Below are positions 46,585 through 63,859 of a stretch of 64,000 nucleotides of DNA, in pieces. The stretch covers positions 6,262,001 through 6,326,000 of the forward strand of contig NZ_CP032543.1 in the NCBI RefSeq assembly GCF_003610995.1, written 5' to 3'. The notes beneath the pieces were generated by a model, which was not told the DNA's origin, did no database searches, and saw nothing but the letters and a program-made list of their open reading frames with translations. Both the position numbers and the translations under genes were made by a program. Origin of the DNA: Streptomyces griseus subsp. griseus (GTDB lineage Bacteria; Actinomycetota; Actinomycetes; Streptomycetales; Streptomycetaceae). Within the stretch, counting starts at the first letter, position 1, and each line of letters begins with the position of its first letter.

Positions 46585-46624
46585 GGGGAAGGACTCCATG
46601 TCTCGTCGGTCACGTGGACGGCTG

Positions 46625-49501: not shown

Positions 49502-50485
49502 ATGAGTGGATTCGCCATCGCGGGGTGGGGCAAGGCCCTGCCCGAGCGGGTCGTCACCAGCACGGAACTGGCCGAGCGCTTCGGGGTCGACGAGCACTGG
49601 GTCGTCAGCCGTTGCGGTATCCAGGAGCGGCGGGCGGTCGACCCGGGCCAGACGACCGCCTCCCTGGCCGTCGACGCGGGCCGCGCGGCTCTGGCAAGAG
49701 CGGGGCTGACCGGCGCCGACATCGCCCATCTGATCGTGGCCACGGCCACCCCCGAGCAGCCCTCTCCCGCCACCTCCGCCTTCGTCCACCACGATCTGGG
49801 GATCGCCGGCGGGGCGATGGACGTCAACTCCGAATGCGCCGGCTTCGTCTACGGGCTGGTGGCGGCCATGGGCATCCTGCGCATGGACCGTCGTCCGATC
49901 CTGCTGATCGGCTCGGACACGCACACCCTGACCGCCAACCCCGCCGACCGGGACCTGTCCATCCTGGTCGGCGACGGAGCGGCCGCGGTGGTCCTCGTAC
50001 CCGGTCCGGAAGATCCTGTTCTGGCCTGGAACCTGGGCGCCGACGGATCGTGTGCAGATGCACTCAAGGTTCAAGCGGGCGGAAGCCGGATGCCCACAAC
50101 GCCGGAAACGGTCGCGCAGGGGCTCCACTTCGCACAGATCAAGGGCAACGAGATCTACCTCAACGCCGTCCGCTACACCGTGCGCACGGTGCGCGAGACG
50201 CTGGAGAGCGCGAAGGTCGCTCCGGCGGAGGTCGATCACGTGATCCCGCACCAGGCGAACATCCGCATCATCAACTCGGTGATGCAGCACTCGGGTCTGC
50301 GCCCGGAGTCCCTGATCACCAACCTCGACCGGTACGGCAACACCGCGTCGGCCTCGATCCCGCTGGCCCTCACCGAGGCGCTGGAGGCGGATCGGATCAG
50401 AGCGGGAGAGCTGGTCCTGCTCGCCGGGTTCGGGGCGGGCATGACCTGGGGTTCGGTCCTGATGCGCTGGGGAGGCGCCACGTGA
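49502..50485 (+). CDS. Beta-ketoacyl-ACP synthase III
   Basis: A 327-residue FabH-type enzyme with the full triad: Cys112 (NSECAGFVYGL), His250 (VIPHQANIRI) and Asn280 (RYGNTASASI). It starts a chain by condensing an acyl-CoA with malonyl-ACP. It lies 9 bases after the ACP gene and overlaps the ketoreductase gene by 4 bases. In prodiginine clusters a similar enzyme (RedP) starts the alkyl chain; that role here is inference. Confidence 0.92.
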   Translation: MSGFAIAGWGKALPERVVTSTELAERFGVDEHWVVSRCGIQERRAVDPGQTTASLAVDAGRAALARAGLTGADIAHLIVATATPEQPSPATSAFVHHDLGIAGGAMDVNSECAGFVYGLVAAMGILRMDRRPILLIGSDTHTLTANPADRDLSILVGDGAAAVVLVPGPEDPVLAWNLGADGSCADALKVQAGGSRMPTTPETVAQGLHFAQIKGNEIYLNAVRYTVRTVRETLESAKVAPAEVDHVIPHQANIRIINSVMQHSGLRPESLITNLDRYGNTASASIPLALTEALEADRIRAGELVLLAGFGAGMTWGSVLMRWGGAT

Positions 50486-51298: not shown

Positions 51299-52105
51299 TC
51301 AGCTCAGCCGGTGTGCCGACATCGTTTCCCACTCCGCCCGCGCGGGGACCACCGGCAGACGGGTCCGGTCCAGCAGGCCGAGGTAGGCGGCCTCGCTCTC
51401 GGGGCTGGGGTCGCAGCCCAGCTCCTCCGCGAGGACGACGCGCAACTGCTGGTATATCCGCAGGGCTTCGGCCCGGTTGCCGGCCAAGCGGTGCGCGGTC
51501 ATCTGGCAGCGGTAGGCGCTCTCCCGGAACGGGGCCTGGCGCACCGCCTCCGCGGCGTAGCGCAGGGCGTGGTGGGTGTCGCCGAGGGCGGACGAGGAAC
51601 TGCTCGCGGTCTCCAGGGCCGAGACCCGCAGATCCTTGAGGTGGCGCCGGACGGACTCCACCCACTCGCCCTCGTGGGAGGCGAGGAAGGGGCCCCGCAG
51701 CAGGGGTACCGCGGTGGCGGCAAGCCGCTGCGCGGTGCTGTGGTCGCCTTCGCGGTGGGCGGCAGCGGCGGTGAACGCCGCCTGCTCGGCACGCTCCACG
51801 TCCAGCTGGGCGTCCTCCGGCAGGTGCAGCAGATAGCGTCCCCCGCGGGCGATGACCGTCGGCTCGACGCCCTTCCCCTCCGAGAGGGAAACTCTGAGGC
51901 GACTGACGACACTGCGTAAAGCCGAAGCCCACGTGCTGGGCAGACCATCCGGCCATATGGTGTCGGCAAGTTGCTCCCGGCCTATGCCAGAGGGGCGTTC
52001 CAGGCAGAGCCGGGCCAGGGCTATCTGTGCCTGATGGCTGGCCAGTACCCGCGGGGCCTCGGATTCATGTTCGATGGAGACGAGGCCGATAAGCCTGATG
52101 AGCAC
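51299..52105 (-). CDS. SARP-family pathway activator with TTA codon
   Basis: A 268-residue Streptomyces antibiotic regulatory protein, close in length to ActII-ORF4 and RedD. An N-terminal OmpR-like winged helix (ALARLCLERPSGIGREQLADTIWPDGLP, LRSVVSRLRVSL) is followed by a bacterial transcriptional activation domain (YRCQMTAHRLAGNRAEALRIYQQLRVVLAEELGCDPSPE). GTG at 52105 follows GGGGGGA. Leu63 is encoded by TTA (51919-51917), the only in-frame TTA that I noticed in the window, so translation should depend on the bldA leucyl-tRNA. It probably activates the three repeat-bearing promoters at 49109-49191 and 52426-52457. Confidence 0.9.
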   Translation of the reverse strand: MLIRLIGLVSIEHESEAPRVLASHQAQIALARLCLERPSGIGREQLADTIWPDGLPSTWASALRSVVSRLRVSLSEGKGVEPTVIARGGRYLLHLPEDAQLDVERAEQAAFTAAAAHREGDHSTAQRLAATAVPLLRGPFLASHEGEWVESVRRHLKDLRVSALETASSSSSALGDTHHALRYAAEAVRQAPFRESAYRCQMTAHRLAGNRAEALRIYQQLRVVLAEELGCDPSPESEAAYLGLLDRTRLPVVPARAEWETMSAHRLS

Positions 52106-52308
52106 GATCGATCCCCCCAGTGAGAGGTTGAGATGACTTCCCCGGCGGCATGGGTGACGGAAGTCGACTGTCTGGCAGTGCGTGCGGTTCCGTGCGTGGG
52201 CCCAGCGTGTGGTTCGTGCGTCAGGTGATGCACGTGGGGATCCCGTGGGAGGGCTGCGGCGATCCGGCAGGAGCTTGGTCAATTCTTCTCCACGGCTGAG
52301 TAAACAGC

Positions 52309-52336
52309 ATTCTCGTTTAAAAAGGGTGTGTGTCAA
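52309..52336 (-). promoter_or_regulatory. Candidate promoter of the SARP gene
   Basis: On the minus strand TTGACA (52336-52331) and GAGAAT (52314-52309) are separated by 16 bases, an acceptable housekeeping -35/-10 pair. The resulting leader to the GTG at 52105 would be about 200 bases. Confidence 0.45.
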
Positions 52337-52363: not shown

Positions 52364-52425
52364 CCCGGTGAATCAGCTGCCCGGTGCGCGCAAATCCTCC
52401 GATGACTGTTTGATCTTGCTCCCGT

Positions 52426-52457
52426 GTTGCGTCTCGATTGCGAGGCGCCCGTTGAAT
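52426..52457 (+). promoter_or_regulatory. SARP-type promoter of the long rightward operon
   Basis: GTTGCGT (52426-52432) and ATTGCGA (52437-52443) repeat with an 11-base period; TTGAAT (52452-52457) follows after 8 bases. Over 21 bases, 18 are the same as in the ACP promoter at 49159. It lies 63 bases before the oxoamine synthase ATG. Confidence 0.7.
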
Positions 52458-52519
52458 TCGAGGCGCATCAGATTCGTTGCACCCGTGTGCAATGGCAGTC
52501 ACAAATGAGAGGACGGCCG

Positions 52520-53734
52520 ATGGCATCCGCAGCGTGGGGGAGAATCGCGCCCAAACTGGAGGCGACGGGCCGGCGCGTGGCGTCGCTGGAGTGGGAGCCC
52601 GAGCGCCGCAACAGCTTCGTCCCCTACACCGCCGAGCGCGACACGGCCTACGTCGACCTCGACGGCCGGCGGCTGCTGATGATGTCCGGCTACAGCTACC
52701 TGGGCCTGGCGGGGGACGAGCGCGTGGTGGCAGCCGCCCAGGCCGCCGCGGCCCGTTACGGCACCGGTAACCACGGCGTACGCGCGCTCGCCGGGTCCAT
52801 CCCGCTCCACGAGGAGCTGGAGGCCGAGGTCGCCACCGTCGCGGAGCGGGAGGCCGCCATCGTCTTCGGTTCCGGCTACGCCGCCAACGTGGGGACGATC
52901 GGAGCCCTGGTCGGCCCCGGCGACACCGTCTTCGTCGACAAGTACGCCCACGCGAGCATCGTCGACGGCTGCCGCCTCAGCGGGGCCACCGTGGTCCGCT
53001 TCCGGCACAACGACACCGAGCACCTGGCCCGTCGCATGGAGGCCGCCGCCCCCGGCGGAGTCCGCCTGGTCATCGTCGACAGCGTCTACTCGATGGACGG
53101 CGACATCGCGCCGCTGCCCCGGCTGCGCGAGGTGTGCGACGTCCACGAGGCGCTCCTGATGACCGACGAGGCCCACGCCCTCGGTGTGATCGGCCGCACC
53201 GGCCTGGGTGTGGAGGAGCACTTCGACCGGCGGGTACGGGTGGACGTCAAGCTCGGCACCCTCTCCAAGGCCATCCCCTCCATGGGCGGCTGGGTCGCGG
53301 GATCGGCCGAGCTGATCGGACATCTCCGTTATGCCGCGCGGCCGTTCCTCTTCTCGGCCGCCCTCGCGCCGGCCTCGGCGGGCGCCGCCCTGGAGGCGCT
53401 GCGCGTGCTGCGCGCCGAACCGGAGCGCGTCACCCGGATCCAGGGGTACGGCACCAGGTTCCGGGAGCTGGTGAGCGCGGGCGGCATGCGGACCGGCGAC
53501 AGCGAGACCGCCGTCGTCCCGCTCATCGCCGGCAGCGACGAGTCGGCCTACGACCTGGCCACCACCGCACGCCGCCTGGGCGTGATCGGGCTGCCTGTGG
53601 TCACCCCCGCCGTCCCGCGCGATCTGGCCCGGCTGCGGATCGCCGTCACCGCACGGCACACGGACGCGGACGTGGAGCTCGCCGCGGAGGCGTTCCTCAA
53701 GGCCGCCGGAGAGTGCGGACTCCTGGCGGGCTGA
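52520..53734 (+). CDS. Alpha-oxoamine synthase (AONS/KBL family)
   Basis: A 404-residue PLP-dependent fold-type I enzyme. The PLP Lys is Lys250 in GTLSKAIPSMGGWV, with TDEAHALGVIG (Asp216, His219) and KYAHASIVDG for cofactor binding. The family joins an amino acid to an acyl thioester with loss of CO2. ATG 52520 has AGAGGA upstream. In prodiginine assembly the RedN-type oxoamine synthase joins serine to a pyrrolyl-ketoacyl carrier; here the enzyme is free-standing, without fused ACP domains. It is first in a long operon. Confidence 0.88.
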   Translation: MASAAWGRIAPKLEATGRRVASLEWEPERRNSFVPYTAERDTAYVDLDGRRLLMMSGYSYLGLAGDERVVAAAQAAAARYGTGNHGVRALAGSIPLHEELEAEVATVAEREAAIVFGSGYAANVGTIGALVGPGDTVFVDKYAHASIVDGCRLSGATVVRFRHNDTEHLARRMEAAAPGGVRLVIVDSVYSMDGDIAPLPRLREVCDVHEALLMTDEAHALGVIGRTGLGVEEHFDRRVRVDVKLGTLSKAIPSMGGWVAGSAELIGHLRYAARPFLFSAALAPASAGAALEALRVLRAEPERVTRIQGYGTRFRELVSAGGMRTGDSETAVVPLIAGSDESAYDLATTARRLGVIGLPVVTPAVPRDLARLRIAVTARHTDADVELAAEAFLKAAGECGLLAG

Positions 53735-53824
53735 CCCTGCCGGCACCGCCCCCATCCATTCGAGCACGGCACCCTCGCCACGGCCGACGGCCGGTCACCG
53801 GAACGGGAAGGAACCACACGGACC

Positions 53825-55084
53825 ATGCGTACCGAAGCCGAACGCGCCGCCCGGCCGGACATCGCCATCAGCGGGATGGGCGCCGTCACTCCGGCCGGGC
53901 TCACCACCGAAGAACTGTGGACAGCGGTGTCGGCCGGCCGGTCCCTGGCGGTCGACCTCACCCACTTCGACACCACCGGCCACCGCATCAGGATCGGCTG
54001 CCGGGTGCCCGAACTCACCGGCCGCGGCCTGCCCTGGCAGGAGGCGCTGGCCACCAAGGCCGCCCGGCGGCTCGACCCGTTCGCCCGCTACGGGCTCGCC
54101 GCGGCGCTGGCCGCCCACGCCGACGCCGGACTGCCGCGGGAACCCGCCGCACGCTGCGCCATCGTGGTCGGCAACGCCGTCGGGGGCCGCGCCACCAGCG
54201 ACGCCGAGTCCGTCAACTTCGCGGCGAAGGGGCCCGCCGGGGTCCGCCCGCTGATGCCCCTGATGACGATGCCGAACGCGGCCGCCGCCCAGATAGCCCT
54301 TCAACTGGGCTGGCACGGACCGGCACTCACCATCTCCACCACCTGCGCGAGCGGGGCCGACGCCATCGGGATCGGCGCGGGCATGCTCCGCGACCACCGC
54401 GCCGACGTGGTGATCGCGGGCGGCTGCGAGGCGACCCTCACGCCGATCACCCTCGCGGGGTTCGGCAACCTCAACGCGGCCTCCCTCCGCACCGAAGCGG
54501 CCACCGCGTGCCGGCCGTTCGACGAGAGCCGGGACGGCTTCGTCATGGGCGAGGGCGCCGCCTTCGTGGTGCTGGAACGGGCAGCCGACGTACGCGCCCG
54601 GGGCGCCCGGGCACACGGGCTGGTCGCCGGATACGCCGCCACCTCGGATGCCCACCACCTCTCGGCCCCGCACCCCGACGGCGCGTACGCCGCCGAGGCC
54701 ATGGCCGGCGCGCTCGCCGACGCCGGTCTCGTCCCCGCGGACATCGCCCATGTCAACGCCCATGGCACCGCGACCGTGCACAACGACCGCGCCGAAGCCG
54801 CGGCCCTGGCCAAGGTCTTCGGACCGGACGGGCCGCCGGTCACCGCCAGCAAGGGCGTGCTGGGCCACCTGATCGGGGCGGCCGGAGCCGTCGAACTCGT
54901 GGTCGCCGTGCTGTCGATGAACGCCGGAGCGGTGCCGCCCACCGCCAACCACACACGAACGGAACCAGAGATGGAGATCGACGTGGTCCACGGCACCCCG
55001 CGACCTGTCCCGCGCGGCCCCGCGCTGACCAACTCCTTCGGCTTCGGCGGCCACAACAGCAGCCTGGTGGTGGCCCCCGCATGA
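53825..55084 (+). CDS. Beta-ketoacyl synthase II
   Basis: A 419-residue FabF-type condensing enzyme with Cys174 (STTCASGADAI), His313 (VNAHGTATVHND) and His348 (KGVLGHLIGAAG), all three catalytic residues. It should extend a carrier-bound acyl group with malonyl-ACP. Candidate substrates are the chain begun by KAS III, or the pyrrolyl thioester made by the downstream enzymes, as RedX does in prodiginine pathways. It begins 90 bases after the oxoamine synthase and overlaps the MaoC gene by 4 bases. Confidence 0.92.
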   Translation: MRTEAERAARPDIAISGMGAVTPAGLTTEELWTAVSAGRSLAVDLTHFDTTGHRIRIGCRVPELTGRGLPWQEALATKAARRLDPFARYGLAAALAAHADAGLPREPAARCAIVVGNAVGGRATSDAESVNFAAKGPAGVRPLMPLMTMPNAAAAQIALQLGWHGPALTISTTCASGADAIGIGAGMLRDHRADVVIAGGCEATLTPITLAGFGNLNAASLRTEAATACRPFDESRDGFVMGEGAAFVVLERAADVRARGARAHGLVAGYAATSDAHHLSAPHPDGAYAAEAMAGALADAGLVPADIAHVNAHGTATVHNDRAEAAALAKVFGPDGPPVTASKGVLGHLIGAAGAVELVVAVLSMNAGAVPPTANHTRTEPEMEIDVVHGTPRPVPRGPALTNSFGFGGHNSSLVVAPA

Positions 55085-55929
55085 CGACCCTGCCCGACTC
55101 CGCACTCGATCCGTCCGCACCCTCCCTGGACGCGGACGCCGCCCTCCGCTACCGGACCGTCACCCGCCGGGCGCTGGGCCGTCCGGCACCCGGCCTGGCC
55201 GTCGCGGGCCCTCTCGCCGCCTTCGTCCTCACCCACCCGCTCGCCGAGCACACGGTCGCCGGCCTCGCCGCCGGCCACGGCCCGTACTCCCTGGTCCACC
55301 TCGCCCAGGAGATCGAACTGCACCACCCGCCGCGCCCCGGCGCCCCGCTCGACGCGACTGCCGAAGTGGACGCCGTACGCGTCGAACCCAAGGGCACCCG
55401 GCTGGTCCTGACCACCACGCTCGCCGACCGGGCGACCGGCGCCGAACAGGCGCGGCTCACCGCCCACATCCTGCTCGTCGGCATCCGGGCGGCAGAACCG
55501 CGCGGGACTCTCGTACCCATGGCCGCGGTGAGGCAGGAGACGCCGGGCGCCACGCTCAGCAGCGACCTCGGGATCGACCGGAGGTGGATCGCCGACTACG
55601 GCCACGCGGCCGGAGACCTCAACCCCGTCCACCTCGACGCCGAGGCCGCCCGGTCAGCGGGGTTCGCGGATGTCATCGCCCACGGCATGAGCCTGGTGGC
55701 ACTCGCCGTGGAGGAGGCCGCCGAGCGGTTCGCGGACGGAGACGTCGACCGGGTCCGGGCCATCGGTGCGCGCTTCGCCCGCCCGGTCCTGCCCGGTGAG
55801 GAAACGTCCCTCGACCTCACGCCCGCAGCCGGCGGGGACACCGTCGCGTTCACCGTGCGGTCGCAGGGCGCCGTCGCCGTCAAGGGCGGGTGGCTCCGGC
55901 TGGCCCCGGCGACGGGAGCGGGCCGATGA
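55081..55929 (+). CDS. MaoC/hotdog dehydratase-like protein
   Basis: A 282-residue double-hotdog protein. The C-terminal half holds the hydratase-2 motif YGHAAGDLNPVHLDAEAARSAG-type block followed by VIAHGMSL, with the catalytic Asp and His. The N-terminal half is a degenerate hotdog without it (FAS1-like). It may dehydrate 3-hydroxyacyl-ACP made by the ketoreductase, or hydrate an enoyl thioester. It overlaps both neighbours by ATGA, so it is tightly coupled. Confidence 0.85.
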   Translation: MTTLPDSALDPSAPSLDADAALRYRTVTRRALGRPAPGLAVAGPLAAFVLTHPLAEHTVAGLAAGHGPYSLVHLAQEIELHHPPRPGAPLDATAEVDAVRVEPKGTRLVLTTTLADRATGAEQARLTAHILLVGIRAAEPRGTLVPMAAVRQETPGATLSSDLGIDRRWIADYGHAAGDLNPVHLDAEAARSAGFADVIAHGMSLVALAVEEAAERFADGDVDRVRAIGARFARPVLPGEETSLDLTPAAGGDTVAFTVRSQGAVAVKGGWLRLAPATGAGR

Positions 55930-57422
55930 CCGGGACCCGGCGGCACGGCGAGATGGCCGACTCCGTTCTCCGCTGGGCCGACAAGACTCCGGACGCCCCC
56001 GCCCTGTGGTGGAACGGCACCCCCACCAGCTACCGGGAACTGGCCGACGCGACCACGGAGGCCCGCGCCCGGCTCGCCGGGCAGGTCCCCGCCGGCGCCA
56101 CGGTCGCCGTCCTCGACGAGAAGTCGCCCGGCACCGTCGCCACCGTCCTGGCCTGCCTCGCCACGGGTCGCCCCGTGCTGCTGCCCTCTCCCACCCTGCC
56201 GCCCGACCATGTCGCGGCCGTGATGGCCGAGGCGCACTGCCGGTACGCGCTCGCCGGGCCCGCCGTCACGGTGACGGCCCCGGCGCGGGGCGGACGCGGC
56301 GGGGGAGCGGTGCCACCGGGAACCGCACTCGTGCTCACCACCTCCGGTTCCACCGGCATCCCCAAGGCCGTTCCTCTCCCGCACCGGGCCGTGGACGCCT
56401 TCACCGACTGGGCCGCGGACGCCTTCGGCATCGCCGAGTCCACCCCCGTGCTCAACTACGCGCCACTCAACTTCGACCTCTGCCTGCTGGATGTCTGGAC
56501 CACTCTCGCCCACGGCGGACAGGTGGTCCTGGTGGACCCGTCGACAGCGGCGAGCGGCCGGGGACTGCTCCGCCTGCTGCGCACCCACCGCATCGAGGTG
56601 GTCCAGGCGGTTCCCCTCTTCTACGCACTGGTCGGCGCGCAGGTCAGGGTGGAGGGCGGCGGCCCGCTGGAATCCGTCCGGCACGCGGCGTTCACCGGCG
56701 ACGTGATGCCCGAGCAGGCGCTCGCCGATCTCGCGGCGCTGGCGCCCGGCGCCCGGCTCCACAACATCTACGGCTGCACCGAGACCAACGACAGCCTGAT
56801 CCACGAGGTCGACCGCAGCCTCCCGCAGTCCGCCCCGATGCCGCTGGGCCGCCCGCTCCCGGGCGTACGCCTGAGACTGCGGGATCCCGACGGGCGGGTG
56901 GTGAACGGGCCGGGGAGCGGCGAACTGGAGGTCTCCACCCCCTTCCAGAGCACCGGGTACGCCGATCCGAGCCGAGCCGCCGAGAAGTTCGTCCTGGAGG
57001 CGGCGCCGGGCGGCGGCCCGGGCACCCCGTGGTTCCGCACCGGGGACCTGGTCGCGAGGGACGGCGAAGGCACCCTCCGGCTCATCGGCCGACTCGACCA
57101 CCAGGTCAAGATCCGAGGCGTCGCCGTCAACATCGGCGAGGTCGAACAGGTCCTGCTGGAACACCCCGCCGTGCTGGAGGCCGGGGTGACCACCGTGCCC
57201 GACCCGGTCGAGGGCCGGCGCCTGATCGCCGTCGTACGGCTGGAAGACGCCTCCACCGTCACCAGCCTCGACCTCAAGCGGCACTGCACCACCCGGCTGG
57301 CCCGGGGGTGGGTGCCCGGCCTGCTCAGGCCCGTGACCGAGCCGCTGCCGCGCACCAGCACCGGCAAGGTGGACCGCCGCACGATCGCGCAGAGCGTGGC
57401 CGCACCCGCCACCGCGTCCTGA
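55926..57422 (+). CDS. Stand-alone adenylation enzyme (prolyl-AMP ligase-like)
   Basis: A 498-residue ANL-superfamily ligase. Core motifs are LVLTTSGSTGIPKAVPLPHR (A3), NIYGCTETNDSLIHEVD (A5), WFRTGDLVARD (A7), GRLDHQVKIRGVAVNIGEVE (A8) and STGKVDRR (A10). The GCTETND element resembles the free-standing proline-activating enzymes of pyrrole pathways (PltF/RedM type); I recall this rather than derive it. A carrier protein follows after 81 bases and a matching dehydrogenase lies 2.3 kb further, which supports proline as substrate. Confidence 0.85.
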   Translation: MTGTRRHGEMADSVLRWADKTPDAPALWWNGTPTSYRELADATTEARARLAGQVPAGATVAVLDEKSPGTVATVLACLATGRPVLLPSPTLPPDHVAAVMAEAHCRYALAGPAVTVTAPARGGRGGGAVPPGTALVLTTSGSTGIPKAVPLPHRAVDAFTDWAADAFGIAESTPVLNYAPLNFDLCLLDVWTTLAHGGQVVLVDPSTAASGRGLLRLLRTHRIEVVQAVPLFYALVGAQVRVEGGGPLESVRHAAFTGDVMPEQALADLAALAPGARLHNIYGCTETNDSLIHEVDRSLPQSAPMPLGRPLPGVRLRLRDPDGRVVNGPGSGELEVSTPFQSTGYADPSRAAEKFVLEAAPGGGPGTPWFRTGDLVARDGEGTLRLIGRLDHQVKIRGVAVNIGEVEQVLLEHPAVLEAGVTTVPDPVEGRRLIAVVRLEDASTVTSLDLKRHCTTRLARGWVPGLLRPVTEPLPRTSTGKVDRRTIAQSVAAPATAS

Positions 57423-57503
57423 CCCCTCTCCACACCCGGCAGGCGCCGGCGCGTCCAGCGCCGTCGGAGGCCCTTTCACGAACAACCCGCCAAGGAGCAT
57501 TCC

Positions 57504-57767
57504 GTGAGCAACGCAGACCAGATCAGCGAGTACATCGTCCGGGAGTTCCTTCCCGATCTCACCCCCTCCCAGCTCCCGCGCGACCTGGACCTCCTGGCCG
57601 ACGGGGCGATCGACAGCCTCGGCGTCCTCAAGCTGATCGCCTGGGTCGAGCACCACTTCCGGCTGGCGGTCGGCGACACCGACCTGGACCCCGAGAACTT
57701 CCGCAGCGTCGACGCCATCGACGCCTACGTCGCGCGCTCCCAGAGCACCGCCGCCACGGGAGGCTGA
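57504..57767 (+). CDS. Peptidyl/acyl carrier protein
   Basis: An 87-residue free-standing carrier protein with attachment Ser38 in DGAIDSLGVLKLIAWVE. The sequence fits the small PCPs that receive proline in pyrrole pathways (PltL/RedO type). GTG start at 57504 with CAAGGAG upstream. It probably receives the aminoacyl group from the adenylation enzyme and presents it to the dehydrogenase at 60109. Confidence 0.88.
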   Translation: MSNADQISEYIVREFLPDLTPSQLPRDLDLLADGAIDSLGVLKLIAWVEHHFRLAVGDTDLDPENFRSVDAIDAYVARSQSTAATGG

Positions 57768-57770
57768 GCC

Positions 57771-58787
57771 GTGCACCCGGCCCTCGTCCCGGTGGTCGAC
57801 CGACGCGCCGCGGCCGGCCCCGAGCAGTGGGACGCGCTGTGGCAGGCGCTGGCCGACGGCGCGCTGGACCGCGGTGACGCGCTGGCGCTCCTCGCCTCGC
57901 TCACCGCGGCCCTGCCCGAGGAGGGCAGCCTGCTCGCCATGGTCGACGCGCTGGACCGGCGGCGCCCGGCGCGGCCCGCCGGCTCCTGGGCCGGCACCGT
58001 CAACGTGGTGGGCACCGGCGGCGGCCCGCCCACCGTGAACCTGTCCACCGCCGCCGCACTCGTCGCCGCCGCCTGCGGGGTCCGGGTCGTCAAGTCCGGC
58101 TCCCGCGCCCACACCGCGCGCACCGGTTCCATCGACCTCCTGGACCGACTGGGCGTCCCGTTCGCCACCTCGCTCGACCAGACGTCCCGTCACCTGGAGA
58201 CCCACGGCATCGCCTTCACCGGGCCGTTCGTCTACCCGGTCCAACTGGCCAGGCTCGCTCTTCTGGCCGTGCCGACGCCCATGCGGGTGTTCGGCCGCTT
58301 CCTCAACATCCTGGGCCCGTTCCTCGCGGCGGTCCCGGTCTCCGCGCAGGTCACCGGCGTCAGCGGGGGGCGGGTCCCGTCCGCCCTGCGCGCCCTGGCC
58401 TCCCGGCCCGGCACCCCGGTCACGTGGCTGGTCACCAACCCGCTCGGCGCCGACGAACTGCTCAGCATGTGCGACAACACGATCCACCTCCCCGACGGCG
58501 GCACACTGACGCTCCGCGCGGGCGAACTCGTCCCCGCCGGCGGATCCCCCGACGACCTGGCGCCCGTCCCCCGGGACGCCGCCGCCGAGCACTTCCGCTC
58601 CGTGCTCACCGGCCGCGCGGGCGCACCCCTGCGCGCCACTCTCCAACTCAACGCGGCCGCGCTCGCCCTGGCCTCCGGGCACCGCGACGACTGGGCGAAG
58701 GCGGTCGCCGAGGCGGGCGCGGCCCTCGACGACGGGGCTGCGCTCGACCTGCTGGAGCGGCTGAAAGGGGCGGACCGTGCCGGCTGA
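57771..58787 (+). CDS. TrpD-like phosphoribosyltransferase, divergent
   Basis: A 338-residue homologue of anthranilate phosphoribosyltransferase. The fold and PRPP loop are recognisable (VVGTGGGPPTVNLST at 79-93; ADELLSMCD for the metal pair). Key acceptor-site residues differ: the usual KHGNR is KSGSR (108-112), losing the His and Asn next to anthranilate, and GTGGD is GTGGG. It may use another arylamine. It starts 3 bases after the carrier protein gene and overlaps the TrpA-like gene by 11 bases. No other complete trp set is in the window. Confidence 0.78.
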   Translation: MHPALVPVVDRRAAAGPEQWDALWQALADGALDRGDALALLASLTAALPEEGSLLAMVDALDRRRPARPAGSWAGTVNVVGTGGGPPTVNLSTAAALVAAACGVRVVKSGSRAHTARTGSIDLLDRLGVPFATSLDQTSRHLETHGIAFTGPFVYPVQLARLALLAVPTPMRVFGRFLNILGPFLAAVPVSAQVTGVSGGRVPSALRALASRPGTPVTWLVTNPLGADELLSMCDNTIHLPDGGTLTLRAGELVPAGGSPDDLAPVPRDAAAEHFRSVLTGRAGAPLRATLQLNAAALALASGHRDDWAKAVAEAGAALDDGAALDLLERLKGADRAG

Positions 58788-59616
58788 CTTCTTCGCCGAG
58801 GCCCGTGCGCGGGAGGAACTGGGCCTGGCCGTCTTCCTCAACGCGGGCGACCCGCCGCTGCCCGTCCTCACCGACCTCGTCGGGCTGCTGGACGCATCGG
58901 GCGTCGACTGCCTCGAACTGGCCGTTCCCTTCCCCGACTCACCCACCGACGGGCCGGTGGTGCGCCGCTCCGCCGACCGGGGGCTGGCCCGGGGCACAGG
59001 CCTGCGCGAGACCCTGGACTTCGTCGCCGCCGTACGACCGGGGCTGAAGCGGCTGCGGATCGCGGTGCTGGCGGACTGGAGTCACAGCCTGCGCACCGCC
59101 GCGCCCGCCGACTACGCCCGCGTCGTCGCGGACAGCGGCGCCGACGCCCTGCTGGCCCACGGCCTGCCGCCCCGGCTGCGGCAGGCCCACCACGAGGCGC
59201 TGCGCGCGGCGGACCTGCCCGAGGTCACCACCTGCTACCCGGGCAGCTCACCGGCCATCGTCGCCGAGACGGCGGCCCACGCCTCCGGATACCTCTACCT
59301 GGTCGCGCGCTACGGGCGCAGCGGCGCCGGAACGCCCGACGGCGGCCACGCCGGTCTGGCGCCGTTCGTCGCCTCCCTGCGCGACCTCACCCTCTCCCCG
59401 ATAGCCGTCGGCTTCGGGGTGTCCACCGCCGAGGATCTCCTCTCCGTCGCCCGCAGCGGCGCGGACGCGGCGATCGTCGGCTCCGCCGGAGTGGCCGCGC
59501 TGGAACGGAGTCTGGAGGCCGGGTCCGACCCGGTTGACGGCTACCGCTCCTTCCTCGCCGACCTCGGCCGTCCCCTCTCCACCCGTCCGAAGGAGGACCC
59601 CCGTGCTCATCCGTAA
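58777..59616 (+). CDS. TrpA-like indole-glycerol-phosphate lyase
   Basis: A 279-residue TIM-barrel protein similar to tryptophan synthase alpha. Both catalytic residues are present: Glu47 in CLELAVPFPDSP and Asp58 in TDGP. The phosphate-site loops IAVGFGVSTAED and IVGSAGV are kept, but the flexible loop YLVARYGRSG differs from the usual SRxGVTG. No beta subunit gene accompanies it, so it may act alone like plant indole-3-glycerol-phosphate lyases and release free indole or an analogue plus glyceraldehyde 3-phosphate. GTG start follows AAAGGGG. Confidence 0.78.
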   Translation: MPADFFAEARAREELGLAVFLNAGDPPLPVLTDLVGLLDASGVDCLELAVPFPDSPTDGPVVRRSADRGLARGTGLRETLDFVAAVRPGLKRLRIAVLADWSHSLRTAAPADYARVVADSGADALLAHGLPPRLRQAHHEALRAADLPEVTTCYPGSSPAIVAETAAHASGYLYLVARYGRSGAGTPDGGHAGLAPFVASLRDLTLSPIAVGFGVSTAEDLLSVARSGADAAIVGSAGVAALERSLEAGSDPVDGYRSFLADLGRPLSTRPKEDPRAHP

Positions 59617-59977
59617 CATCGAGACCGTCAAGACCGTCGACTGGGGCAACGGACTCAGCCGCAGATTCATCCTGGACGCCGACGGCCTGGGCTACAGCGT
59701 CACCGACACCACGGTGCGGGCGGGGACCAAGTCCCGCCTGGAGTACCGCAACCACCTGGAGACCTGCTACTGCATCGAGGGCTCCGGCGAGGTGGTGGAA
59801 CTCGACGGCACCAGTCATCCGCTGACGCCGGGCGTCCTCTACTCGCTCGACAACAACGACCCGCACTTCCTGATCGCCTCGCCGCACGAGGACCTGCGTC
59901 TGGTCTGTGTCTTCGCCCCGGCGCTCCGGGGCGACGAGGTGCACAGCCTGGCCGAGGGCGTCTCCTCGGCCTACTAG
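59603..59977 (+). CDS. EctC-like cupin
   Basis: A 124-residue cupin with clear similarity to ectoine synthase: LIRNIETVKTVDWGNG at the start, EYRNHLETCYCIEGSGEV in the middle and DLRLVCVFAPALRGDEVH at the end. EctC closes a ring by dehydration of a diamino acid. No ectA, ectB or ectD lies nearby, so an ectoine role is unlikely and the enzyme may close another ring in the pathway. GTG start at 59603 (GAAGGAGGA upstream) overlaps the TrpA-like gene by 14 bases. Confidence 0.82.
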   Translation: MLIRNIETVKTVDWGNGLSRRFILDADGLGYSVTDTTVRAGTKSRLEYRNHLETCYCIEGSGEVVELDGTSHPLTPGVLYSLDNNDPHFLIASPHEDLRLVCVFAPALRGDEVHSLAEGVSSAY

Positions 59978-60108
59978 GCCGGACCGCCGCCCACCCGACG
60001 GGCGCCTGAACCGCGGGCGCCCGCCGATCCGACGGCGGGACACCGCCGTCACCTCCCCGCCCGTCACCGACCCAGGCCACCCGCACGGCCCGTACGGAAG
60101 GCTCCGCC
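59978..60108. other. Hairpin-rich gap before the dehydrogenase gene
   Basis: A 131-base gap within the operon with two short perfect hairpins: 7 bp (60000-60006 with 60016-60022) and 8 bp (60031-60038 with 60043-60050). They could reduce downstream expression. No SARP-type repeat was found here. Confidence 0.4.
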
Positions 60109-61254
60109 ATGAGGAACCGCGACGCAGACCAGCAGGCCCTCTGCGCAGGCATGGCCCAGTGGGGCAAGATCCTGAGCGAGGGTCATATCGAGGCGGACGC
60201 CCGGTCCGCCTTCGAGCCCGGCCGATGGCGATCCCTGGCCGAAAGCGGCGTCCTCGGACTGCCGTTCCCCCAACAGTGGGGCGGCGCGGGCCAGTCCCTT
60301 CTCACCACCCTGCACGTCCTGGAGACTCTCGGTGAGACCTGCCGGGAGTCCGGGCTGAACTTCTGCGCCACCACGTCGATGGCCAGCACCGGCGTGCCCC
60401 TCACCGCCTTCGGCAGCGACGCCCTGCGCGAGCGGTATCTGCCCGGCATCTGCTCGGGCGAGCTGATCGGCGCGCATGCCATCACCGAACCGGACAGCGG
60501 CTCCGACGCCATGGCCATGACCACCCGCGCCGAGCGCGACGGCACGCACTACGTCCTCACCGGCGGCAAGGCCTTCGTCAGCAACGGCCCCATCGCCGAT
60601 GTCTTCGTCGTCTACGCGCGTACCCGCCCCGAGGGCGGACCGCTCGGGACCACCGCCTTCCTCGTCGACCGGGACACCCCCGGGCTCTCCGTCGGCGGGC
60701 CCACCGCCAAGATGGGCCTGCGTACCGCCCCGTTGTCCACCCTCCACCTCGACGGCTGCCGGATACCCGCCGACCGGGTGCTGGGCCGGTCCGGCGGCGG
60801 ACTGCTCGTCCTGGACCATGTGATGAAGCGCGAGATCCTGTTCGGATTCACCGTCCAGCTCGGCGAGATGCGCCACCGGCTGGAGCGCACCGTCGCCTAC
60901 GCCCGGGAACGCCGGGCCTTCGGCCATCCCATCGGCGACTACCAGGCGGTGTCGCACCGCGTCGTCGACATGAAGATCCGCACCGAGACCGCCGCCAAGT
61001 GGCTCTACGACACCGCCGAGCGGCTCGCCGCGGGCGAGGACGTCACGGCCGACCTCGCCATGACGAAGATCCTCGCCAGCGAGGCCGCACTGGCCACCAG
61101 CCTCTCCGCGGTCCGCGTCTTCGGCGGCGCGGGCTACCTCACCGAGGTCGGACTGGAGAAGGAGGTACGTGCCGCGGTCGCGGGCACCCTGTACTCCGGC
61201 ACCAACGACATCCAGTACAACCACGTCGCCTCGACCCTGGGGCTGGGCGGATGA
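60109..61254 (+). CDS. Acyl-CoA dehydrogenase, prolyl-carrier type
   Basis: A 381-residue flavoprotein of the acyl-CoA dehydrogenase fold. ITEPDSGSDAMAMTTRA and GGKAFVSNGPIADVFVVYA closely follow the order seen in PltE/RedW, enzymes that oxidise prolyl-S-carrier to pyrrolyl-2-carboxyl-S-carrier; further matches are RRAFGHPIGDYQAVSHRV and TLYSGTNDIQYNHVA. With the adenylation enzyme and carrier protein it completes a pyrrole-forming set. The comparison with PltE is from memory. GGAAGG lies before the ATG; it overlaps the TrpF-like gene by ATGA. Confidence 0.85.
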   Translation: MRNRDADQQALCAGMAQWGKILSEGHIEADARSAFEPGRWRSLAESGVLGLPFPQQWGGAGQSLLTTLHVLETLGETCRESGLNFCATTSMASTGVPLTAFGSDALRERYLPGICSGELIGAHAITEPDSGSDAMAMTTRAERDGTHYVLTGGKAFVSNGPIADVFVVYARTRPEGGPLGTTAFLVDRDTPGLSVGGPTAKMGLRTAPLSTLHLDGCRIPADRVLGRSGGGLLVLDHVMKREILFGFTVQLGEMRHRLERTVAYARERRAFGHPIGDYQAVSHRVVDMKIRTETAAKWLYDTAERLAAGEDVTADLAMTKILASEAALATSLSAVRVFGGAGYLTEVGLEKEVRAAVAGTLYSGTNDIQYNHVASTLGLGG

Positions 61255-61952
61255 GCGTCCCGGCGGCGGCGTCCCGGCCGCTGCTCAAGGTGTGCGGCGC
61301 CACCTCTCCCGAGGAGGCCGCCGCCGTGGCACCACGCGCCGATCTCGTCGGCCTCTGGTACGGGGTGGAGAACGGGGCCCGTGACCTGACCCGCACGCGG
61401 TTCACGGCCGTGGCCGACGCCGTCCGCACGGCGGGCCGGGCCGAGCCGGTGCTCGTCACCTTTCTGCACGAGGCCGGAGAGATCGCCGCGGCCGCCCGTG
61501 CCGCCGGCGTGCGCTGGATTCAGCTCCACTCCTACCAGCCGCCCACGGCCGTGGCGGCCCTGCGCAGGGCGATGCCCGACGCGGTGCTCGTCAAGGCCGT
61601 GCACGTGCTTGACGGGGTGTGCCTCGAGCGGCCCTTCCTCAGGGCGTACGCCCGCGCCGGGGCGGACCTGTTCCTCGTCGACTCGGCGACCCGCGGCGGG
61701 GCGGTCGGCAGCACCGGACACCCCGTGCCGGCGGCGGCGCTGGAGGCCCTGCTCCCCGCGCTGCCCCGGCCGTTCGTCCTGGCGGGCGGCCTCAGCGAGG
61801 CCGATGCGCCGGGCGGGGCCTTCGCCGCGCATCCCGGGTACCGGGGCGTCGACATCGACAACGCCGCCCGTACCGACGGCGGCCCGCTCGACCCGGCCCG
61901 GGTCGCCGCCCTGGACCGCGCCTGGACCGGCACTCCCGCCCCTGCGCCGTGA
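61251..61952 (+). CDS. TrpF-like phosphoribosyl isomerase, divergent
   Basis: A 233-residue TIM-barrel homologue of phosphoribosylanthranilate isomerase. The catalytic pair is kept: Cys15 in LLKVCGATSPEEA and Asp144 in LFLVDSATRGGAVG. The C-terminal phosphate motif SSGVE is replaced by the region GVDIDNAARTDGG, and the usual GGTG loop is GGAVG. It should carry out the Amadori rearrangement after the TrpD-like step, possibly on another arylamine. It lies between the dehydrogenase and TrpC-like genes. Confidence 0.78.
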   Translation: MSVPAAASRPLLKVCGATSPEEAAAVAPRADLVGLWYGVENGARDLTRTRFTAVADAVRTAGRAEPVLVTFLHEAGEIAAAARAAGVRWIQLHSYQPPTAVAALRRAMPDAVLVKAVHVLDGVCLERPFLRAYARAGADLFLVDSATRGGAVGSTGHPVPAAALEALLPALPRPFVLAGGLSEADAPGGAFAAHPGYRGVDIDNAARTDGGPLDPARVAALDRAWTGTPAPAP

Positions 61953-62000
61953 AAGCTCCCGTCCTGCGAGAAAAGCCCGACACCCCGTGAGGAAAGCCCG

Positions 62001-62840
62001 ATGACGCAGTCCTTCCTCTCCGCGCTCCTCGGCGCGGAGCGCCCCGTGATCATGGAAGTGAAGTCCCGCGACGCGCACGGCGCCGACCTGCTGCGGGGCC
62101 GCCTTCCCGGCGATCTCGCCGCCGCCTACCAGCAGGCGGGGGCCCCGTGCGTGTCCGTCGTGACGGGCCGGTGGTTCGGTGGGTCGGCCGCCATGCTGCA
62201 CGAGGTGACCGCCCGCGTGGACGTCCCGGTCCTGCTCAAGGACTTCGTGACGCGTCGCGAGCAGATCACCGCCGCCGCCCACGCGGGCGTCTCGGCGGTC
62301 CTGCTGACCGCGGCGCTGCTGCCCCGGGAGGCCCTGCACGACCTGGCCCGCCAGTGCCAGGCGCACGGGCTGACTCCGTTCGTGGAGATCACCACCGCCG
62401 AGGAGGCGATCGGTCTGCCGAACCCGCGGGACTGCGTCGTCGCGGTCAACAACAAGGACATCACCGCCCGTGAACGGGACGCCGGTGACCTGGACCGCAG
62501 CCGCGCGCTGCTCCCCGCCGTACGGGCCGCGGGCACGCTCTGTCCCGTCAGCGCCAGTGCGGTGAGCAGCCCGGCCACCGCGGCCGGTCTGCTGGCCGAG
62601 GGATACCGGGGCCTGCTCATCGGGACCTCACTGCTGCGTGCCCCGAGCCTCGACGCCTGGCTGGCCGAGTTCGACACCCACCACACGGCGAGCACCGGGA
62701 AGACCGAGCGCGTCGTGGTGCCGCTCACGGTCGAGGCACCACAGGTCCTGCCGCACCCCGCCCCCCTGCCCGGTACGGCGGCCGGCGGGACGGTGACCCC
62801 GGCCACGCCCGCCGGCGAGGCCGAGGGCGTGCCCGCGTGA
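62001..62840 (+). CDS. TrpC-like indole-glycerol-phosphate synthase, divergent
   Basis: A 279-residue IGP-synthase homologue. Catalytic positions are kept: Glu19 and Lys21 (IMEVKSRD), Lys80 (VLLKDFVTR), Glu129 (PFVEIT) and Asn150 (VAVNNKDI), with spacing close to the family. The substrate-binding SPS motif is missing (RDAHG instead) and the C-terminal SESG is SASA. The last 50 residues form a Pro/Thr-rich extension. It should close the pyrrole ring by decarboxylation and dehydration. It overlaps the next gene by GTGA. Confidence 0.8.
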   Translation: MTQSFLSALLGAERPVIMEVKSRDAHGADLLRGRLPGDLAAAYQQAGAPCVSVVTGRWFGGSAAMLHEVTARVDVPVLLKDFVTRREQITAAAHAGVSAVLLTAALLPREALHDLARQCQAHGLTPFVEITTAEEAIGLPNPRDCVVAVNNKDITARERDAGDLDRSRALLPAVRAAGTLCPVSASAVSSPATAAGLLAEGYRGLLIGTSLLRAPSLDAWLAEFDTHHTASTGKTERVVVPLTVEAPQVLPHPAPLPGTAAGGTVTPATPAGEAEGVPA

Positions 62841-63859
62841 GCGCCGCTCCGACGGGGCCGGTGGCCACGGCCGACGTCGCCCCGGCCGGGCACGACGTCG
62901 CCCCGGCCGGGCACGACGTCGCCCCGGCCGGGCACGACGTCGCCCCGGCCGGGCACGACGTCGCCCCGGACGGGGTCGAGCAGATCGTGCTGGGCCACGG
63001 TCGCCGTCGCCTCGGCGCCTGGCGGGCCGCACCGGCCTCCGGGGCGACCCGGTCCGTGCTCGTCGCCGTTCACGGCCGGGCCATGTCACCCGGCTACTTC
63101 GCCGGTCCGGTCGCCCCGCACACCTCGCTGCTCGCTCTCGCCACGTCGCTGGGTCACACCGTCCTCGCGGTGGAACGGCCCGGCTACGGCCTGTCCCGGG
63201 CCGCTCTCCCGCACGGTCTGCCACTCGCCGAACAGGCCGGGCTGCTGCGCCGAGCCCTCGCCGACTATGCCGAACGGCACCCGGTCGGAGCCGGTTTCTT
63301 CCTGCTCGGGCACTCCGACGGCGGCAAGACCGCCCTGCACCTGGCAGGGGAGCCCTGGAGCGGCGCCACCCCCCTCGACCGGTTGCTCGGGCTCGACCTC
63401 AACGGCTGTGGCTGGCACTACGCGTCGGCAGCCGCCCATTTCCCGGACACGCTGGCAGGTGGGGCGGGGGAGCTTAACTGGGGCCCGCTGCGCCTCTATC
63501 CGGGCGGAACCTTCCGGGCCAGCCGCGCCCTGCTTCGCGAGGTTCCGGCGGCGGAGGAGGCGGAGACGGGGCGGTGGCCCGGCCGGTTCCCAGCTGCCGC
63601 CGCCCGGGTGCGCTGCCCGGTGCGGCTCACCTTCGGCGCGTACGAGGGCTGGTGGCGCCTGGACAGGGACGAACTGGCGGCGGTGGCCGCCAGTTTCACG
63701 GGCACGCGCCGCCCGGTCGTCGAACGCCTGCCGGAGGCCGGACACAACCTCAGCCTCGGACTGGCCGCCCCGCTGTACCACGCACGGGCGCTGGCGTTTC
63801 TCGAAGAGTGCCTGGCGGCTTCCCCGACGGCCCGAGGTGACGCGCGCGTATGCGCGTGA
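62837..63859 (+). CDS. Alpha/beta hydrolase with repeat-bearing N terminus
   Basis: A 340-residue hydrolase. Residues 13-44 contain four exact copies of the heptapeptide DVAPAGH plus a partial fifth, probably a flexible linker. The hydrolase domain has AVHGRAMSPGY, nucleophile Ser in LLGHSDGGKTALH, a probable Glu acid in FGAYEGWW and His in EAGHNLSLG. GTG start overlaps the TrpC-like stop. In the cluster it could be a thioesterase or ester hydrolase; the role is unknown. Confidence 0.82.
   Translation: MSAAPTGPVATADVAPAGHDVAPAGHDVAPAGHDVAPAGHDVAPDGVEQIVLGHGRRRLGAWRAAPASGATRSVLVAVHGRAMSPGYFAGPVAPHTSLLALATSLGHTVLAVERPGYGLSRAALPHGLPLAEQAGLLRRALADYAERHPVGAGFFLLGHSDGGKTALHLAGEPWSGATPLDRLLGLDLNGCGWHYASAAAHFPDTLAGGAGELNWGPLRLYPGGTFRASRALLREVPAAEEAETGRWPGRFPAAAARVRCPVRLTFGAYEGWWRLDRDELAAVAASFTGTRRPVVERLPEAGHNLSLGLAAPLYHARALAFLEECLAASPTARGDARVCA
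62873..62969 (+). repeat. 21-bp tandem repeat inside the hydrolase gene
   Basis: Four perfect 21-base units (62873-62893, 62894-62914, 62915-62935, 62936-62956) and 13 bases of a fifth. They encode DVAPAGH repeats in frame. Perfect identity at every base suggests recent expansion. Confidence 0.95.

Follow-up and report, generated by a model that had tools for sequence, protein, structure and literature searches.

A kosinostatin-type cassette with four tryptophan-like enzymes in a Streptomyces griseus gene cluster, and a possible glutamine origin of its probable pyrrolopyrrole unit

What do four homologues of tryptophan enzymes make when they lie together in a biosynthetic gene cluster? The question is raised by a stretch of 64,000 nucleotides of Streptomyces griseus subsp. 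griseus (GCF_003610995.1, positions 6,262,001-6,326,000 of the single 7.24-Mb contig NZ_CP032543.1), hereafter called the window, in which genes for TrpD-, TrpA-, TrpF- and TrpC-like proteins share one operon. The original prediction was that this set is repurposed to make indole or an indole analogue from an amine other than anthranilate, which is then released for coupling. All four genes are open reading frames (ORFs) with high GC content at third codon positions and lie where they had been placed, family profiles agree with their naming, and neither TrpB nor TrpE is found among the annotated ORFs of the cluster. Four companions had been passed over: a stand-alone adenylation enzyme (A) and a carrier protein (PCP) directly upstream of TrpD, and an ectoine-synthase-like (EctC-like) cupin and an acyl-CoA-dehydrogenase-type flavoprotein (ACAD) between TrpA and TrpF. 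With the four Trp-like genes they make up a run of eight, A, PCP, TrpD, TrpA, EctC, ACAD, TrpF, TrpC, which we call the cassette.

The same eight genes are found in Micromonospora okii TP-A0468, the producer of kosinostatin (PMC8698034). Its locus (L123) holds all of them in the order of the window, with identities to the window proteins of 47% (A), 50% (PCP), 46% (TrpD), 56% (TrpA), 68% (EctC), 61% (ACAD), 45% (TrpF) and 56% (TrpC). Because eight homologues occur together at 45-68% identity in the kosinostatin producer, the window almost certainly holds a cassette of the kosinostatin (kst) type. Just past the M. okii locus, which spans 54863-75666 of contig 12, lie two adjacent matches of the ketosynthase (KS) type (C12:76112, 168.5 bits, and C12:77386, 124 bits; C12 is taken as contig 12), and these fit a KSalpha/chain length factor (CLF) pair of a type II polyketide synthase (PKS). 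Among the annotated proteins of the window there is no KSalpha and CLF beside the cassette, as a whole kosinostatin or quinocycline cluster would have, only one FabF-type beta-ketoacyl synthase (KAS) and one KASIII. Judged by its genes, the window thus joins a kst-type cassette to KAS, MaoC and alpha-oxoamine synthase (AONS) enzymes in place of a type II PKS.

For kosinostatin, the kstB genes are described as loading nicotinic acid and turning it into pyrrole, and the kstC genes as combining pyrrole with phosphoribosyl pyrophosphate to give pyrrolopyrrole (PMC7918784). The same source lists similar clusters in several strains, one of them Nocardiopsis alkaliphila, and states that the cluster of Actinokineospora bangkokensis may be complete; the cassettes of both (L130 and L140) were recovered independently here. 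By analogy with kosinostatin, the product of the window cassette is very probably a pyrrolopyrrole. A tryptophan-like route to this unit, with a discrete A enzyme and a PCP to which the intermediate is tethered, was reportedly described for kosinostatin by Ma et al. in 2013; this logic is already published and is not new here.

The counts given below refer to 97 loci, namely 19 from a genus scan and 78 from a scan of named genomes, including nine identical pairs between the two sets. In the named-genome scan, based on the TrpA-like alignment, the best 80 of 83 confirmed stretches represented 79 distinct loci, of which one in Acinetobacter (L143, 31%) was excluded as an ordinary TrpA. Homologues were counted by tblastn (E up to 1e-5) on fetched DNA around the loci. 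For residue counts, start codons were guessed and proteins below 70% or above 160% of the length of the window protein were dropped, leaving, of a possible 98 (97 loci and the window), 90 A, 92 PCP, 93 TrpD, 95 TrpA, 94 EctC, 97 ACAD, 95 TrpF and 93 TrpC. Residue counts include identical copies; the distinct sequences number 83 A, 83 PCP, 85 TrpD, 86 TrpA, 82 EctC, 88 ACAD, 86 TrpF and 84 TrpC.

The cassette genes are not the housekeeping trp genes. The same genome carries separate trpA (1,565,823), trpC (1,568,320) and trpD (1,686,618) genes, as well as a true ectC at 1,397,270, and among 60 genomes of the phylum, this one included, it is the only one with a second match above the family cut-off for TrpC and likewise for TrpA. 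In each of three trees, the branch dividing 38 cassette rows (13 chosen, 25 random) from housekeeping rows received an SH-aLRT (approximate likelihood-ratio test) value of 100, with 28 of 30 housekeeping rows for TrpC, 27 of 30 for TrpA and 27 of 31 for TrpD; the trees were made by a quick method only, and the TrpD tree carries a long-branch warning. The original prediction had allowed that the genes would simply supply tryptophan if they were the only trp genes of the genome, grouped with housekeeping enzymes and turned over anthranilate normally; in the sequences sampled, the first two do not hold. With separate trp genes and separate tree branches, the cassette is not housekeeping, and simple tryptophan supply was rejected on these grounds.

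The residues of the Trp-like proteins show the same combination across the family that had been noticed in the window, i.e., core catalytic residues are retained and substrate motifs are changed. E47 and D58 of TrpA are found in 95/95 homologues, C15 and D144 of TrpF in 94/95 (one gap) and 95/95, and E19, K21, K80 and E129 of TrpC in 93/93, with N150 in 89/93. The KHGN motif of TrpD has become K[T/S]G[S/A] in all 93 proteins (His to Thr in 71 and Ser in 22; Asn to Ser in 91 and Ala in 2), and GTGGD reads GTGGG in all of them. The RR pair, equivalent to R193/R194 of the Mycobacterium tuberculosis enzyme by comparison with anthranilate phosphoribosyltransferase (AnPRT) in the PDB, has Arg at neither place in 93/93; the first position is V, I, A, L or T and the second A, L, V, M, F, Y, H, I or Q. 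We take the His and Asn of KHGN and the RR pair to form the anthranilate site of TrpD, and by these residues none of the 93 proteins belongs with primary tryptophan synthesis. An AlphaFold2 model of the TrpD-like protein (mean pLDDT 90.6, pTM 0.91) bears no part of this argument. The SGVE motif of TrpF is absent in 95/95. In TrpC, the SPS motif is lost in the window protein, the commonest residues there in the family being R, D/S and A/G/P. The TrpC residue R183 (housekeeping numbering), which contacts the substrate carboxylate, is Lys in 91/93 and Gly in 2, and E211 (same numbering) is Ala in 92/93. In indole-3-glycerol phosphate synthase (IGPS), this carboxylate contact is described as an Arg (PMC7681013). 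Since the anthranilate-site residues of TrpD are gone and the carboxylate Arg of TrpC is swapped, the acceptor of the TrpD-like enzyme probably lacks an ortho carboxylate.

The other half of the cassette gives information on what the acceptor could be. D235, Q278, D330, S331 and K517 are found in 90/90 A enzymes (83 distinct), including that of M. okii with the code DLLQLFLDSK, and the A5 motif NxYGxTE is found in 89. The code positions were placed by hand from motifs and are given in GrsA numbering. The best single-domain PDB match of the A enzyme is the prolyl-carrier ligase 6o6e, and the carrier protein has DS[LI] in 92/92. Together, D235 and K517 mark alpha-amino-acid substrates, and the aryl-acid enzyme DhbE is without that Asp (PMC11253843), while the code given for nicotinate-accepting MxcE/DhbE is PLPAQGVVNK (PMC8400222).

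The EctC-like cupin retains the Fe ligands of ectoine synthase (E53, Y80 and H88) in 94/94, and also the equivalents of R25, T40 and Y52, which contact the alpha-amine and amide nitrogens. Two residues of true ectoine synthases are missing in all 94: the carboxylate contact N38 (Thr in 90, Cys in 2 and Ala in 2) and W21, which is Gly (residue roles from PMC6344544). The loss of both fits a thioester substrate instead of a free acid. True EctC of H. elongata is reported to convert glutamine to 5-amino-3,4-dihydro-2H-pyrrole-2-carboxylate (ADPC) as a side reaction (PMC6344544). The flavoprotein is closest to prolyl-PCP/ACP dehydrogenases, with 367.7 bits against the prolyl-PCP-dehydrogenase equivalog cut-off of 650 for NF045652. 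Its E242, which we take to be the catalytic base, is found in 97/97. By chemical reasoning, a single two-electron oxidation of the ADPC thioester would give an aromatic 5-aminopyrrole. The A code, the contacts of the cupin, the kinship of the flavoprotein and the altered TrpD and TrpC sites therefore lead us to favour, on balance, an alpha-amino acid as the substrate of the cassette, with glutamine as the best candidate.

We find it rather likely that the cassette as a whole makes a carrier-bound pyrrolo[2,3-b]pyrrole-2-carboxyl unit from glutamine. The A enzyme would load L-glutamine onto the PCP, and the EctC-like iron cupin would form a ring by joining the alpha-amine to the side-chain amide, so that water is lost and 5-amino-3,4-dihydro-2H-pyrrole-2-carbonyl-PCP results. 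The prolyl-PCP-dehydrogenase-like flavoprotein would then take two electrons to give the aromatic 5-aminopyrrole-2-carbonyl-PCP. On this acceptor, the TrpD-like enzyme would add phosphoribose to the exocyclic amine, the TrpF-like enzyme would perform the Amadori shift, and the TrpC-like enzyme would use the adjacent ring carbon to close a further pyrrole ring, with a proton instead of CO2 being lost. Finally, the TrpA-like enzyme would cleave off glyceraldehyde 3-phosphate by a retro-aldol reaction. The pyrrolopyrrole and the tryptophan-like logic are here taken from the published work on kosinostatin, and homology, conservation and co-occurrence from the sequences; glutamine, the cupin, flavoprotein and TrpC steps, and the downstream use are our own proposals.

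Several points weigh against this scheme. The A code equals no glutamine code with which it was compared, and DAVQMGCVDK (Asn/Gln) shares only Q278 beyond D235 and K517. In the genome of one locus (L133) the only EctC is of the ordinary kind (84 bits) and none of the cassette type was found, and the TrpA match of this locus is cut short; another locus (L076) is without A and TrpF. The correspondence between the M. okii locus and the kst genes is drawn from the producing strain, the gene content and the neighbouring KS-type matches, and not from gene names. Moreover, Ma et al. reportedly concluded in 2013, from feeding experiments, that the kosinostatin unit originates from nicotinic acid and ribose. 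This origin is repeated for kosinostatin in papers citing that work (PMC5321127, PMC7918784, PMC8400222), and counts against glutamine. D235 alone leaves a beta-amino acid possible (PMC11253843), and IGPS, which does work without the substrate carboxylate, is then 41,000-fold less efficient on its normal ring (PMC7681013). In PMC8698034, the KS genes of kosinostatin carry the numbers 8-66 to 8-68, and 15-39 to 15-41 belong to another type II PKS; this numbering does not name contig 12, and the ORF number suits a position near 76 kb but is no proof of it.

According to the published route, the A enzyme would load nicotinic acid on the PCP, kstB-type enzymes would remove a formyl group and so contract the ring to a pyrrole, to which the Trp-like enzymes would add the second one. 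This route is stated for kosinostatin in papers citing Ma et al., and feeding evidence for it is reported; we consider it unlikely to hold for the cassette. The A code is of the alpha-amino-acid type throughout, the A5 motif is nearly invariant, and the alpha-amine and amide contacts retained in every EctC-like protein have no clear role on a pyridine ring. In addition, kstB7, the proposed deformylase gene, is described as absent from the cluster of a second kosinostatin producer, where an 81% homologue lies nearly 1 Mb off (PMC7918784). If the start is an amino acid, it could be one other than glutamine, of the alpha or beta type, whose side chain bears an amide, leading to a different fused bicycle. 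Q278, D330 and S331 are polar and invariant and would suit more than one amide substrate, and we know of no precedent for the DLLQAFIDSK pattern. Such a substrate seems improbable to us, as glutamine is the one among the protein amino acids to yield an amidine with a five-membered ring, a closure reported for EctC (PMC6344544). Beta-alanine or aspartate, leading to a pyrrole-3- or pyrrole-2-carboxyl unit, was rejected on chemistry, because neither would leave EctC anything to do and proline already gives access to pyrrole-2-carboxyl.

If the set turned a substituted anthranilate into free indole or an indole analogue, the product form of the original prediction, this would explain both the retained catalytic residues of TrpC, TrpF and TrpA and a TrpA-like lyase without TrpB among the annotated ORFs of the window. 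We regard it as very unlikely, since the anthranilate site of TrpD is gone in all 93 proteins, no anthranilate-type synthase is found among the annotated cluster proteins, the A, PCP, EctC and ACAD genes accompany the Trp-like set in 69/78 named loci, and the kosinostatin homologues are reported to make pyrrolopyrrole (PMC7918784). What can be kept of that prediction, as far as sequence can tell, is a repurposed set which acts on a non-anthranilate amine and ends in a TrpA-type release; the indole or free arene probably gives way to a pyrrolopyrrole, which is likely to be carrier-bound. In calcium-dependent antibiotic clusters, duplicated Trp genes raise the supply of precursor. The four proteins do belong to Trp families by profile, and the TrpA-like protein scores above the NCBIfam trpA cut-off, but the separation from housekeeping TrpC, TrpA and TrpD in the trees, the altered substrate sites and the lack of TrpB and TrpE among the annotated cluster ORFs make such a role extremely improbable.

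The distribution of the eight genes supports their being one unit. All eight are present in the fetched DNA of 69/78 named loci, with one order and strand in 66. The nine incomplete loci comprise five at contig ends (L096, L100, L102, L105, L107), two that are split (L101, L138) and two from which genes are missing (L076, L133), and a different gene order is found in L081, L091 and L128. The TrpC-like gene is missing at 5/97 loci. L102 stops where its contig ends, and for L046, L048, L101 and L138 a cassette-type TrpC is found elsewhere in the genome, with 331-376 bits against 118-126 for the next, housekeeping-level matches. For L101 and L138, the missing TrpD, EctC and PCP are grouped at a second locus of the same genome. 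Pairwise distances of the eight proteins correlate with rho of 0.59-0.83 among the 66 rows keeping all eight proteins (genus-scan loci left out), and 20 permutations of the TrpD-TrpC comparison averaged -0.006, the highest value being 0.11.

The cassette is also widespread. In a genus sample of 392 genomes, 20 had a strong TrpF-like match (E <1e-44) and 5 more a weak one (1e-11 to 1e-13). The record titles of the 78 named loci, which come from the best 80 of 83 stretches, give 18 genus names: Streptomyces, Kitasatospora, Actinophytocola, Actinocrispum, Lentzea, Kibdelosporangium, Nocardiopsis, Micromonospora, Actinoplanes, Spirilliplanes, Actinosynnema, Actinokineospora, Couchioplanes, Arthrobacter, Sanguibacter, Rhodococcus, Roseomonas and Rhodospira. 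It is also found in metagenome-derived genomes of Pseudonocardiales and Acetobacteraceae. By its gene content in these genomes, the cassette is a common, portable module, and its breadth and plug-in use are new here.

Some genomes have further peculiarities. Split cassettes were seen for L101/L243 and L138/L244 and in genomes G128 and G173, with TrpC, or TrpD, EctC and PCP, at the second place. Streptomyces sp. WAC05374 carries the incomplete L076 together with a second, complete cassette (L071). In three genomes (G271, G198 and G128), the TrpF-like gene occurs in two copies of equal identity, one towards each end of contig C1, which would fit a place within terminal inverted repeats. The form of the window, with its gene order, also occurs on a plasmid of Streptomyces sp. 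NBC_00536, where the annotation gives genes as tryptophan and ectoine enzymes.

The features of the window are collected in Table 1. The plus-strand run from AONS through KAS, MaoC and the cassette to a terminal hydrolase contains several gene overlaps (52424-63859), and the KASIII, regulator, methyltransferase, monooxygenase, oxidase and phosphopantetheinyl transferase genes lie upstream of it. Of the neighbours in the original prediction, the KAS enzymes and the Streptomyces antibiotic regulatory protein (SARP) were seen, but the several carrier proteins come down to one carrier gene among the annotated ORFs. In the 5' part of the hydrolase gene (window 62872-62974), a 21-bp unit is repeated 4.9 times with 98% matches and encodes a seven-residue repeat. 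Matches to PHROGs were to families of unknown function only.

Table 1. Cassette genes and their neighbours in the window, with positions counted from its first nucleotide and the profile or structure matches behind each assignment.
Feature	Position	Strand	Matches and remarks
TrpD-like phosphoribosyltransferase	57771..58787	+	TIGR01245 2.2e-36, below cut-off; PDB AnPRT 1v8g 9e-17
TrpA-like lyase	58777..59616	+	TIGR00262 7.2e-36, above cut-off
EctC-like cupin	59603..59977	+	PF06339 3.6e-36; PDB EctC 5onm 5.1e-30
ACAD flavoprotein	60109..61254	+	NF045652 5.5e-110, below cut-off; 4irn prolyl-ACP dehydrogenase 1.1e-81
TrpF-like isomerase	61251..61952	+	PF00697 1.5e-7, above Pfam cut-off
TrpC-like cyclase	62001..62840	+	PF00218 1.1e-33, above Pfam cut-off
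Stand-alone A enzyme	55890..57422	+	code DLLQAFIDSK; TIGR01733 2.8e-74, below cut-off
Carrier protein (PCP)	57504..57767	+	DSL motif; carrier-protein families, all below cut-offs
AONS, BioF/Kbl type	52424..53734	+	TIGR00858 1.3e-112, below cut-off
FabF-type KAS	53825..55084	+	TIGR03150 3.2e-118, below cut-off
MaoC-type hydratase/dehydratase	55081..55929	+	PF01575 6.5e-18
KASIII	49502..50485	+	NF006829 1.5e-92, above cut-off
SARP regulator	51299..52336	-	start uncertain; NF053617 3.1e-21, below cut-off
CFA-type S-adenosylmethionine (SAM) methyltransferase	48142..48993	-	start estimated; NF040660 3.5e-34, below cut-off
Flavin-dependent monooxygenase (Baeyer-Villiger-like)	46625..48145	-	NF045818 3.8e-65, below cut-off; PF00743
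FAD-linked oxidase (cytokinin-dehydrogenase type)	45076..46599	-	PF09265 2.6e-30
Alpha/beta hydrolase	62837..63859	+	last gene of the operon; PF00561 5.6e-6; tblastn match in 32/97 loci
Phosphopantetheinyl transferase	42782..43459	-	start estimated; possible cluster edge; NF050105 3.3e-42, below cut-off

The neighbour genes suggest where the unit goes. In the window, KAS and AONS genes adjoin a heteroaryl-PCP cassette, and the KAS, MaoC and AONS enzymes would extend the pyrrolopyrrole unit. Prodiginine clusters extend pyrrole-2-carboxyl-PCP in a similar way. For an AONS-type extension in this cluster we see about an even chance. AONS lies beside the cassette in 46/97 loci (identity of at least 55%), and 6 more have KAS2 and MaoC with no AONS match. 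We know of no compound assigned to this arrangement, and among the matches listed from the open literature (subscription journals mostly fall outside it) we found no report of the product of an AONS-type cluster or of a revised origin of the pyrrolopyrrole. As for other neighbours in the 97 loci, a transglutaminase-like gene was matched at 26 and UbiD at 11. A condensation-PCP protein was matched at 7 loci (in one of them at 28% identity), a Glu/Leu-dehydrogenase-like gene at 6 and a putative type II PKS-group cyclase also at 6; L051 and L131, which are a single genome stretch, both count for UbiD and for the cyclase. The same bicyclic unit may be loaded into type II PKS, nonribosomal peptide synthetase or KAS/AONS lines. 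A complete cassette with condensation-PCP and Glu/Leu-dehydrogenase-like neighbours (L252) was seen on pSCL4, the giant plasmid of Streptomyces clavuligerus, a strain in industrial use.

Four of the 97 loci have a TrpB2-like gene, namely those of Kitasatospora aureofaciens, two Lentzea albidocapillata and Actinokineospora auranticolor (L080, L084, L119 and L133), and all four also have UbiD and a transglutaminase-like gene. The TrpB2-like protein of L119 scores above the NCBIfam TrpB-like cut-off and retains the GSHK motif. It reaches 2.4e-125 against 6hul, a solved beta chain of tryptophan synthase, and 4.2e-104 and 7.5e-104 against entries for beta chain 2. The UbiD of the same locus is best matched by solved protocatechuate-type decarboxylases (1.6e-46), with weaker matches to AnInD (5e-25) and PA0254 (3.6e-12). 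The presence of these three genes beside the cassette suggests a tryptophan isostere as product: the transglutaminase-like enzyme would free the acid, UbiD would remove the carboxyl group, and TrpB2 would join the bicycle to serine. This leads to the tentative and somewhat doubtful idea of a parallel tryptophan-like pathway in Actinobacteria, in which carrier-bound glutamine replaces chorismate, 5-aminopyrrole replaces anthranilate and pyrrolo[2,3-b]pyrrole replaces indole, and whose TrpB2 clusters make a tryptophan isostere. If it were true, the published nicotinate origin of kosinostatin would be wrong.

Other TrpF-like genes were seen outside the cassette. The loci of two distant homologues (L053 and L055) contain an indigoidine-synthase-A-like gene, and L053 also one for a uracil phosphoribosyltransferase; TrpF seems to have been recruited once more here, perhaps for C-nucleoside clusters. 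On a plasmid of Aliiroseovarius crassostreae (L253), a TrpF-like gene (30%) adjoins trpA. UbiD and UbiX lie close to them, and within about 9 kb there is no gene annotated as adenylation enzyme, ectoine synthase or TrpC; the TrpF-like match occurs in 8 plasmid records of the species.

What had been one odd antibiotic pathway becomes a common and portable module. Besides its breadth, the sequence evidence for an alpha-amino acid start and the four loci adding TrpB2 and UbiD are new. Automatic annotation can label cassette genes as tryptophan or ectoine synthesis, as in one fully annotated record, and the TrpF-like gene is named as anthranilate isomerase in 7/19 plasmid records. The scheme offers a testable correction of a published precursor, and a way in which enzymes might make aromatic aminopyrroles and fused bicyclic amidines while these are bound to carrier proteins. 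It also predicts unknown compounds, including a possible tryptophan isostere and the product of pSCL4.

Among known systems, the kosinostatin genes kstB and kstC are the closest, with all eight genes in order and a reported tryptophan-like route to pyrrolopyrrole. The window differs in its KASII, MaoC, AONS, KASIII, methyltransferase and oxidases, in having no KSalpha/CLF pair among its annotated proteins, and in that the published start for kosinostatin is nicotinate. With the building blocks of prodiginines and tambjamines (RedM/RedW, PigI/PigA/PigJ/PigH) it shares a stand-alone A enzyme, a PCP, a prolyl-PCP-dehydrogenase-like flavoprotein, and KAS with AONS. In contrast to these, the A code of the window has Q278, D330 and S331, set against what we take to be the prolyl code, and the EctC-like cyclase and four Trp-like enzymes are added. 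The cupin shares with ectoine synthase EctC the sequence family, the Fe ligands and the alpha-amine and amide contacts, but W21 is Gly, N38 is lost and the gene lies outside any ect operon, the true ectC being elsewhere in the genome. Recruited tryptophan enzymes are also described for AdeK, derived from PriA, for a trpF near the showdomycin genes and for the trp genes of scytonemin (PMC13055916). Like the window, these bring phosphoribosyl enzymes of primary metabolism into specialised metabolism; they are single enzymes or true precursor supply, whereas the window has a four-step set beside an A-PCP pair.

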